From Prosthecobacter debontii (GTDB lineage: Bacteria; Verrucomicrobiota; Verrucomicrobiia; Chthoniobacterales; Chthoniobacteraceae), in the NCBI GenBank assembly GCA_945861385.1, contig CAMAUI010000029.1:1-42665 (forward strand): 42,665 nucleotides of DNA, read 5' to 3'. Below the pieces are notes generated by a model. That model was given only the letters and a program-made list of their open reading frames with translations, did not search any database and had not been told where the DNA came from. Shown here piece by piece: positions 30,188 to 33,592 of the stretch. How positions within the stretch are numbered: the first letter of the stretch is position 1; each line of letters begins with the position of its first letter. A program made the translations under genes and the position numbers.

Positions 30188-32899
30188 TCAGGCGACGACG
30201 ATGTTCACGAGGCGGCCGGGGACGACGATGAGTTTCTTGATCGTCCTGCCGGCGGTGGCCTCGGCGATTTTTGGCGCGGCCTTGGCGATGGCTTCGATGT
30301 CCTCCTGCGTGGCGTCTTTCTTCACGACGATCTTGTCGCGCAGTTTGCCGTTCACCTGCACGGGGAGTTCGATTTCGTCCTCGATCAAAAGCGCGGGGTC
30401 GTAGGCGGGCCACGCGGCGTCGGCGAGGAGCGTCGTGCCGCCGAGGATGGCGTGCAGTTCCTCGGTGAGGTGCGGCGCGAAGGGATTCAGCACTTGCAGC
30501 AGGAGGCGGATCGCGGACACGGGGCGCGGAGTTGCGGCGATGAGAGCATTCGTGCAGACCATCATCTGCGCGATGGCGGTGTTGAAGCTGAGCGCCTCGA
30601 TGTCTTCGCCGACTTTTTTGATCGTGGCGTGGACGACTTTTGCGAGCGGCTTTTCCATAGGCACGTCCTGCACGGTGGCATTGCGCTGCCACTCACCGGC
30701 CTGATTTTCCTCCATGACCAAGCGCCACACTCGCGCGAGAAAACGGAAGACGCCTTCGACGCCGCTCATGCTCCACGGCTTGGTGGCTTCGAGCGGGCCC
30801 ATGAACATCTCGTAGAGCCGCAACGCGTCGGCGCCATACTCCTCGATCACGTCGTCGGGGTTCACGACGTTGCCGCGCGACTTGCTCATCTTTTGCCCGT
30901 CCTCGCCGAGGATGAGGCCCTGATTCACGAGGCGCTGGAACGGCTCGGGCGTCGAAACGTGGCCGAGATCGTAGAGCACCTTGTGCCAGAACCGCGCGTA
31001 GAGCAGGTGAAGCACGGCGTGCTCGGTGCCGCCGACGTAGAGATCCACGCCGCCGAACGAAACCGGAGAGCGGAGGGCGGAATGCGGAGAGGTTATCACG
31101 TCCGCACTGCCCGCATCTTTCCGGTCTCCGCTTTCCGCTTTCCGGTTTCCAAGCATCCAGTAGCGCTCCGCGTCCGCGCCGACGAAACGATCCGCATTTT
31201 TCGAATCAATGTAGCGGAGATAGTACCAGCATGAGCCGGCCCATTGCGGCATGGTGTTGAGTTCGCGCGTTGCGGTGGCGCTGTAGCGGACCCAGTCGGT
31301 CGCTTTTGAGAGCGGTGGCTCGGGGGTGCCGGTGGGTTTGAAATCGGTCAGCGAAGGCGGGACAACGGGGAGTTTGCTGGCGTCGAGCGCGCGGTGCTTT
31401 CCATTTTCCCAGACGATGGGGAAGGGCTCGCCCCAGTAGCGCTGGCGCGAGAAAAGCCAGTCGCGGAGTTTGAAGTTGATCGTCTTTTTGCCGAGGCCAT
31501 CGGCTTCGAGGCGGCGGATGATTTCGGCTTTCGCCGCGGCGCTGGGCAGTCCGTCGAGCGGGCCGCTGTGGATGGCGTAGCCTTCGCCGACAAAGCACTC
31601 GAGCGGCTCCGCGTCGCAAACGCCACCGCCGCCGAGTCCGATGCGAGGCTCCGGCGAGACGACCTCGCGGATGGGCAGCGCGAATTTCCTCGCAAACTCC
31701 CAGTCGCGCTCGTCGTGCGCGGGCACGGCCATGATCGCGCCGGTGCCATAGCCGGTGAGCACGTAGTCGGCGATCCAGATCGGGATGCGCTCGCCGTTGA
31801 CGGGGTTGATCGCGAACGCGCCGGTGAAGACGCCGGACTTGTCCTTCGTCAGCTCGGCGCGCTCGAGGTCGCTCTTGCGCGCCGCCCTTTCGCGGTATTC
31901 CTCGACGGCGGTCGCCTGTTCCTCGGTGACGAGTTCCTCGACCAGCACGTGCTCGGGCGCGAGTACCATGTAGGTCGCGCCGTAGAGCGTGTCGGGCCGG
32001 GTCGTGAAAACGGTGATCGTTTCATCCATCCCCGGCGGACAATCGGCGACTTTGAATTTCACCTCCGCGCCTTCGCTGCGGCCGATCCAGTTTCGCTGGT
32101 GAATCTTGATGCTCTCGGGCCAGTCGAGGCCGTCGAGTTCATCAATGAGCCGCTGTGCGTAGGCCGTGATGCGCAGCATCCACTGCCGCATCGGGCGGCG
32201 CTCGACGGGATGGCCGCCGACTTCGCTCTTGCCATCAATGACCTCCTCATTCGCGAGTACCGTGCCGAGTTCGGGGCACCAGTTCACCGGCGCATCGCTC
32301 ACATAGGCGAGTCGGTGCGAGTCAATGAACGCACGGCGCTCGTTTTCGCTTTCGTTTGGAAGCTCGGCCTCCCGCTTTTCGATCAACTCCGAGACGGGAC
32401 GCGCGCGATTTTTCTCCGTGTCGAAATAGCTGTTGTAGAGCTGCACGAAGATCCACTGCGTCCATTTGAAATAGCCGGGGTCGGTGGTGTTCACCTCGCG
32501 CTGCCAGTCGTAGCCGAAGCCGATGCTCTGGAGCTGCTGCTTGAACTTGGCGACGTTCGCCTCGGTCGTCGCGCGCGGGTGCTGGCCGGTCTTGATGGCG
32601 TATTGCTCCGCGGGCAGGCCGAACGCGTCCCAGCCCATCGGGTGCAGCACGTTGAAGCCGCGCATTTTTTTGTAGCGCCCGATGATGTCCGTCGCCGTGT
32701 AGCCCTCGGGATGCCCGACGTGCAGGCCCGCGCCGCTCGGGTAGGGGAACATGTCGAGCACATAGTATTTCGGCTTCGCGGGATCGAAGCCCGGCTCGCC
32801 GGGATTCGGGACGTGAAAGGTCTGCCGTTCGTCCCAAACGCGCTGCCAGCGCGGCTCGAATTGGTCGAATGGAAATGGTCTGCGGCGCTCGTTGCTCAT
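30188..32899 (-). CDS. leuS: Leucyl-tRNA synthetase with in-frame repeat insertion
   Basis: A 903-aa class I synthetase that charges tRNA-Leu. The ATG at 32899 gives [20 protein letters not shown]; upstream frame is antisense to rdgB. HIGH motif HVGH is at 60-63, the CP1 editing domain follows ([31 protein letters not shown]), and KMSKS is at 670-674. The C-terminal anticodon-binding and tail domains are complete. Residues 583-617, between YWM and [20 protein letters not shown], are an extra 35 residues (starting [15 protein letters not shown]) where other LeuRS proteins have one residue or so. This segment coincides with an inverted-repeat DNA element. Since leuS is essential, the insertion must be tolerated unless another copy exists. 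Confidence 0.95.
31049..31153. repeat. 105-bp inverted-repeat element inserted in leuS
   Basis: The 105 bases encode LeuRS residues 583-617. Arms 31059-31089 and 31119-31149 pair at 24 of 31 positions (GAAACCGGAGAGCGGAG and the complement of its counterpart), separated by 29 bases. The purine-rich arms read as repeated CGGAAAGCGGA units. Length is 35 codons, frame preserved, no stop on the leuS strand. It looks like an intragenic palindromic repeat that spread into a coding gene. Confidence 0.75.
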
Positions 32900-33001
32900 G
32901 TTTCGAAAAGGGCGCGGACTGTGCCCGCGCGGGCTGCGCTCCGCAAGCGCGGCGGCGTTTCGCCTTTCCTCCCACACCCGCCGCGGGGCAGGCTGCGCGG
33001 G

Positions 33002-33592
33002 ATGCAACGCCTGCTTGTCGCCACGAAAAATTCCCACAAGACGGCCGAGATCCGCGCCATCCTGGGCGCGGGCTGGGATGTCACGGACCTCACGGCGCAC
33101 CCGGTGATTCCGGTGCCGGAGGAGACGGGGAGCACCTTTGAAGATAATGCGCGCATCAAGGCCGAGGCCGCGTCACGTGTTTTCGCCGGCATCGTGCTCA
33201 GCGACGATTCGGGGCTGGAGGTGGATGTCCTGGGTGGGAAGCCGGGCGTGCATTCCGCCCGCTATGGGGGCGTGCATGGCGATGATGCGGCGAACCGTTT
33301 GCGCCTCAGGCGCGAGCTCGCTGCACTCGCGATTCCGCCGCCGTGGATCGCGCGATTCCGCTGTGCGATGGCGCTGGCTCGCGATGGAAAAACGCTCGCG
33401 GTTTTCGACGGGCGGGTGGAGGGATGCGTGATCACCGATGAGCGGGGAACCGGGGGTTTCGGCTACGACTCGATGTTCATCCCCGATGGCTGCACGGGGA
33501 CGTTCGGCGAGCTTCCCGGCTCCGTGAAAAACAGGATGAGCCACCGTGCCCGCGCGCTTTCCGGCGCCGCACGTTTTCTCTCAGCGGTGTGA
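33002..33592 (+). CDS. rdgB: RdgB/HAM1-family XTP/dITP pyrophosphatase
   Basis: A 196-aa enzyme that removes deaminated purine nucleotides (dITP, XTP) from the pool. The start [14 protein letters not shown] (SxNxxK type motif, N10 and K13), [55 protein letters not shown] and [10 protein letters not shown] are all present. ATG 33002 was chosen at the conserved start; the frame extends far upstream antisense to leuS. It is divergent from leuS (102-base gap) and converges on the prepilin gene with a one-base gap. Confidence 0.93.

Follow-up and report, generated by a model that had tools for sequence, protein, structure and literature searches.

The window, a stretch of 42,665 nucleotides from Prosthecobacter debontii, carries on its minus strand leuS, the gene for leucyl-tRNA synthetase (LeuRS). 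Its product matches the LeuRS editing domain, tRNA-synt_1 and Anticodon_1 families of Pfam and LeuRS structures such as 1h3n, and it is the sole strong LeuRS match in the genome, which bears out the view of the initial annotation that an essential gene had received an insert. The LeuRS is intact and the reading frame stays open through the insert, as that annotation had also stated. Exactly 35 residues (ORF residues 650-684) lie between the motifs YWM and VDLYVGG; the earlier count of 35 extra residues holds in this sense, but two relatives from the genus with a short loop (G008 and G009) have 7 residues at the site, giving a net gain of 28. Throughout, G000 denotes the P. debontii genome itself, G001-G009 nine other genomes of the genus, and C the contigs of G000. 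The features of leuS and the array places in the same genome are collected in Table 1; the host genes were named by Pfam.

Table 1. Features of leuS in the window and heptamer-array places elsewhere in the P. debontii genome
Feature	Position	Strand	Remarks
leuS (leucyl-tRNA synthetase)	30188..32899	-	903 codons from likely ATG at 32899; ORF 30188-33100
Insert-bearing loop	31049..31153	-	in frame; 105 bp, 35 codons between YWM and VDLYVGG
Arm, purine-rich on leuS strand	31115..31150	-	GGAAACC GGAAAGC GGAAAGC GGAGACC GGAAAG
Hairpin loop	31094..31114	.	between 35-nt arms
Other arm, purine-rich on plus strand	31058..31093	+	CGAAACC GGAGAGC GGAGGGC GGAATGC GGAGAGGT
valS array	contig C136		open frame
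metG array	contig C23		open frame
ubiD-family gene array	contig C21		single arm
B12-binding/radical-SAM gene	contig C166		two elements; second runs into contig end
U32 peptidase gene	C13:33137		four GGATTTC units, after DUF3656 match
Array not clearly in a gene	C10:14099

The 105-bp inverted repeat with 31-base arms, 24 of them matching, is confirmed at the place reported. The best ungapped inverted pair of 31 nt joins positions 31058-31088 and 31120-31150, and its 24 matches were reached by none of 298 random 105-mers from the window and none of 300 shuffles of the element (maximum 19 in each set). The RNA of positions 31040-31165 is predicted to fold with -57.9 kcal/mol (z -3.23; 1 of 200 shuffles equally good). 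The period-7 nature of the arms is an addition to the earlier description: both are arrays of the heptamer GGANNNC, for which TRF reported a period of 7 in either arm, and on the leuS strand the second arm is the inverse of CGAAACC GGAGAGC GGAGGGC GGAATGC GGAGAGG. A known RNA family was rejected, as the eight Rfam matches in positions 30900-31300 (E up to 1) were all to microRNAs, far below gathering, and are taken as chance. Elsewhere in the window, another palindrome (7-53 and 134-180, 47-nt arms, 89% complementary) lies just upstream of an ORF ending at 219.

Two computed properties suit the element to coding DNA. A heptamer repeated head to tail and read in any frame yields the same cyclic heptapeptide, computed for GGAAAGC as GKRKAES or AFRFPLS. 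For GGAAAGC, GGAGAGC, GGATACC, GGAAACC, GGATTGC and GGAACGC both strands are stop-free, which holds for 50% of all heptamers. The elements are open on average in 4.9 of six frames compared with 2.2 for shuffles, one frame being forced for elements in genes. Annotators should beware that peptides of these genomes such as GKRKAESG or SALRSPLSA derive from repeats.

Related arrays in the genome and the genus

A search of the genome with the 105 bp, as the initial annotation had advised, found relatives elsewhere, some of them in genes, although what they share is the heptamer architecture: four other places are 72-91% identical over parts of the query only. With heptamer patterns, eight array places are known, leuS included, and the frame is open through the array at seven of them (leuS, valS, metG, ubiD, two in the B12/radical-SAM gene, and the U32 peptidase gene). 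These eight places cover 24 of the 27 one-mismatch matches, among the matches listed, and 14 of the 15 exact ones, so that at least one further place exists. Three of the eight lie in aminoacyl-tRNA synthetase genes, a post hoc count from which no excess is claimed. The assembly is a draft of 174 contigs, and C166 and C65 each end inside such an array. The same heptamers stand at both ends, and by eye we took that of C65 as the other side of the second radical-SAM element; such hairpins therefore probably break the assembly. The valS of this genome (L298) has two more repeat-like inserts, a GRADFQPAVQGILPG...GRIPAPAGCKPALP stretch and a STQSIESTQSMDSMDKMDGMD stretch; the ValRS of G001 has a stretch like the former at another position.

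Across the genus we counted matches to four CGGANNN units with one mismatch allowed; matches overlap within an array, so these counts are not element numbers. Among the matches listed, there were 89 in G004, 77 in G008, 44 in G003, 32 in G005, 27 each in G001 and P. debontii, 18 in G006 and 2-4 in the other three genomes, against 0-3 per genome for the reversed control. Reading 30 regions of G004 and 10 of G005 gave 39 and 10 elements, of which 21 and 2 lie in likely genes by a post hoc criterion (a frame that stays open across the element, 80 or more codons to either side of it, and GC3 exceeding GC2 by 0.25 or more on both sides). All 15 G004 ORFs sent to Pfam match a family above cut-off. 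The element lies inside such a match in nine (protein kinase, UvrC RNase H, QueG, PSCyt2, four PSD1 and peptidase U32) and between two domains in two (ABC transporter, GMP synthase); in the remaining ORFs it stands at the edge of a match (two), inside a below-cut-off match (one) or outside (one). Four PSD1-family genes of G004 (L261, L262, L275 and L281) have heptamer inserts in the same domain with similar surroundings.

Paired elements of the genus share one anatomy: each of the two arms has some four to five heptamers, the purine arm comes first, an inner cap is present and the letters are specific to the genome. We sampled 16 paired elements, 12 from G004 and four from P. debontii, with 35 arms when neighbours within 40 bp are included. 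Exactly four perfect CGGA units were found in 31 of the 35 arms; because pairs were chosen by a four-unit pattern, arm length is bounded from below but not from above, and with one mismatch allowed arms run up to five or six units. The cap CGGA[ATG]AG is the innermost unit in 31 of 35 arms, compared with 25 of 101 other units. All 12 neighbouring pairs in the 40 regions from G004 and G005 have the purine arm first. Period 7 was not prominent in an unbiased scan of blind samples (400 kb of P. debontii, 200 kb of G008 and 130 kb of G001); the elements are thinly spread and were traced by pattern, and their frequencies therefore depend on the pattern.

The three variable letters of the heptamer agree most often within an array (fraction of pairs identical 0.37), less often between arrays of the same genome (0.149) and least often between different genomes (0.026), for six genomes with arrays picked by pattern; none of 300 permutations reached the 0.149. 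The exact pattern occurs in 62 of 194 genomes of the phylum and 47 of 107 genera, where the reversed control also matches some. Outside the genus the arrays are mostly single. Twenty regions from six such genomes held seven neighbouring pairs, three with the purine arm first, two in reverse and two direct, and among the matches listed for 118 loci of named genomes 3 of 23 neighbouring pairs were inverted. Heptamer arrays therefore do not generally take the palindromic form.

Filled and empty sites in relatives

Nine genus genomes were examined at the insert sites of MetRS and ValRS (site A), and each site is empty in all seven relatives readable there. Site 2 of the radical-SAM gene has heptamer palindromes in P. 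debontii and G004, GGAAAGC-like and GGATACC-like, no palindrome in five other relatives and other inserts in two; G006 gave no gene. The UbiD loop has an ATCCGAA heptamer in G001 where P. debontii has GGAAACC, and neither in G002 and G009; it was unreadable in five other genomes.

In the LeuRS loop, six of eight readable relatives have inserts of other heptamers (the site was not recovered from G003): CCAGTCA-type units in G001, G004, G005 and G006 and CTCAACT-type units in G002 and G007, with a short loop in G008 and G009. Both types are stop-free on one strand only, the strand that is read in LeuRS. Six hand-picked inserts, five at this loop and one at another LeuRS loop, have a lag-7 identity of 0.58-0.88, the highest of lags 3-11. 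Against its own reading, the initial annotation had set a shared LeuRS insertion of unrelated DNA in all close relatives together with a 105-bp sequence of no other genomic copy; other DNA does fill the loop in six of the eight, but other copies exist. Among 28 genomes out to the order, single cases have quite different inserts, and the loop is therefore a tolerant place, as had been proposed. Some 200 residues, not repeat-like, are inserted between YWM and GGVDLY in the LeuRS of G012 (L054), and the same loop of G016 (L044) has a tandem peptide repeat (TIVGSSGDPAG-like). At another LeuRS loop, near residue 608 of the P. debontii protein, G001 (L041) and G014 (L046), which belong to different genera, have a common insert HHERG...FPLPSLSEIEGVEP. 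Near residue 354, G008 (L055) and G014 (L046) have inverted period-7 arrays of the GATTGCG/CAGCAAT and GCAGGGA/CCTGCTC types.

In relatives, GGAAAGC occurs within the native MetRS loops, and GGAAACC stands at the insert site in one LeuRS from the order. As SAAG is common to the native MetRS loop and the hairpin loop, the native loop may possibly survive inside the hairpin loop of metG.

Origin of the inserts

We conclude that a dispersed hairpin repeat has one of its copies in leuS, and that the scarcity of stops in this copy and its position in a permissive loop explain why it is tolerated. The family has probably arisen at new places by copying of a hairpin unit. In a full element, a short variable loop separates two inverted arrays, each of some four to five GGANNNC heptamers with CGGA[ATG]AG as the inner unit, so that one strand folds into a hairpin. 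Some process copying such a hairpin-prone unit would seed new places; most landings in genes would be lost to selection, and, to judge from the filled and empty sites, those that keep the frame in permissive loops would persist. LeuRS would gain a neutral or mildly costly peptide, for which no benefit need be assumed. This account is favoured by the copies in unrelated genes of P. debontii, the empty metG and valS sites, the constant anatomy, the genome dialects, the open frames and loop sharing in G004. On the other side stand the large differences in letters among copies, the lack of a period-7 signal in the blind samples and the mostly single arrays beyond the genus.

The earlier term mobile palindrome accordingly keeps its basis in related copies elsewhere, intragenic ones included, but mobility itself we infer: inspection of the metG and valS sites by eye revealed no clear target-site duplication, and a mobilising enzyme was not found either. 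Y1 transposase found no support as the mobiliser, since its gene numbers do not follow element numbers (3 genes to 89 pattern matches in G004, 2 to 77 in G008, 11 to 4 in G007 and 9 to 4 in G002); a period-7 array lies near a Y1 transposase gene at 1 of 12 loci.

The loops bear on a competing explanation, local birth without mobility, in which a heptamer seed within a gene grows by slippage and a fold-back template switch makes the inverted arm in place. In one G004 gene, two elements (near residues 184 and 691) have 34 of 35 loop bases in common between unlike flanks. This recurrence counts against local birth and is our strongest indication that copying can take in a whole unit. One radical-SAM loop is shared by G004 sites 1 and 2 and P. 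debontii site 3 and occurs, with up to three mismatches, nowhere else in the ten genus genomes. Its confinement to one gene seems to speak for local copying, and so weighs against the dispersed family as well. Fourteen of the 16 loops of the anatomy sample could be cut out; among their 91 pairs, nine had at most 1 of 100 shuffles equally good. By chance about one to two such pairs would be expected, and of the nine, three come from one gene or have common flanks; loop likeness across unrelated genes is therefore weak. Local birth would also profit from seeds already in place, the GGAAAGC of native MetRS loops and the GGAAACC in one LeuRS of the order, from sister species filling the same LeuRS and UbiD loops with different heptamers, and from units being more alike within than between arrays. 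It does not sit well with constant arm length and inner cap, the invariant purine-first order in the regions read, or the genome dialects, and we consider it somewhat unlikely.

A reading of the LeuRS loop as a functional insertion specific to the lineage, under selection for the peptide or an mRNA hairpin, could draw on the strong predicted hairpin and on the presence of something in the loop of several relatives; we nevertheless judge it very improbable, as conservation is lacking both in sequence and in presence (among eight relatives, three heptamer types and two short loops) and the same repeat occurs in unrelated enzymes. An assembly or binning artefact, which the 174-contig draft and the ends of C166 and C65 within such an array might suggest, is scarcely credible given the open frame at seven of eight places and the same anatomy in independent genomes.

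A bolder reading is that the elements are a class of selfish hairpins in this lineage whose period-7 arms act as a frame-proof coding disguise, giving one peptide in all three frames and leaving both strands stop-free; the letters would be renewed in each genome, with arm length and inner cap retained. This is speculative and, in our estimate, distinctly unlikely; if true, the copying machinery would read period and hairpin more than sequence. With filled and empty versions of the sites in LeuRS, MetRS, ValRS and other enzymes occurring naturally, repeat movement and the tolerance of core enzymes for arbitrary peptides both become testable.

Comparison with known repeat systems

Palindromes in frame in core enzymes are a curiosity already known from Rickettsia and REP-rich genomes. 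Rickettsia palindromic elements (RPE) are described as palindromic stem-loops of about 100-150 bp that occupy many conserved, mutually unrelated protein genes without breaking the frame (PMC2229807; PMC10969869), with a counterpart in the protein-coding palindromes of Wolbachia (cited in PMC2229807). The leuS element resembles them as a long stem-loop palindrome (105 bp, 31-nt arms with 24 matching, fold z -3.23), and leuS-type copies likewise lie in frame in unrelated protein genes (7 of 8 places in P. debontii and, by the post hoc criterion, 21 of 39 in G004 and 2 of 10 in G005). By description, however, RPE sequence and peptide are conserved, whereas here copies are 72-91% alike over parts and heptamer letters vary by copy and genome; Rickettsia also belongs to another phylum.

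Intragenic GTAG/CGTC REPs have been reported from conserved genes including tRNA synthetases (in species other than Opitutus terrae), sometimes two per gene; the dimers code for 20-30 residues, the stems are mostly 6-9 bp, and intragenic GTAG repeats are most numerous in O. terrae, a verrucomicrobium (PMC3733652). A palindromic repeat inside conserved genes, tRNA synthetases among them, is common to both systems. Identity with these REPs was rejected: neither strand of the 105 bp has GTAG, and its one CGTC is internal, in the loop at 31099. The 31-nt arms of the leuS element also contrast with the 6-9 bp stems, as do the heptamer arrays, and the elements show no association with the REP-associated tyrosine transposase (Y1_Tnp). 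With in-frame RPE and intragenic REPs in print, the phenomenon itself is not new.

Among other coding repeats, PARCEL is dispersed coding DNA with dyad symmetry, giving a tandem protein domain of 25 residues mostly in ORFs of unknown function (PMC2996958). The leuS-type element is likewise dispersed coding DNA with dyad symmetry, but has the heptamer arms that PARCEL lacks. Its arms also correspond to the terminal inverted repeats of a MITE.

The arms themselves find their likeness in heptameric simple repeats: the cyanobacterial heptanucleotides, TAACTGA of Beggiatoaceae and GGGAATC of Xanthomonas are dispersed 7-base units arranged head to tail, as in the leuS family. These are described as mainly intergenic and direct, with one indirect TAACTGA repeat reported (PMC4679880; PMC4692102). 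In one of its orientations, TAACTGA yields stops whichever of the three frames is read. In contrast, the genus arrays are often inverted pairs and those of P. debontii lie mostly in open frames. Our literature search, in which subscription journals were thinly covered, found no publication on heptamer-armed palindromes in genes. The combination of in-gene palindrome and heptameric arrays looks new, and leuS-type repeats, being built of heptamers, join two repeat classes that have been described apart in the literature covered.
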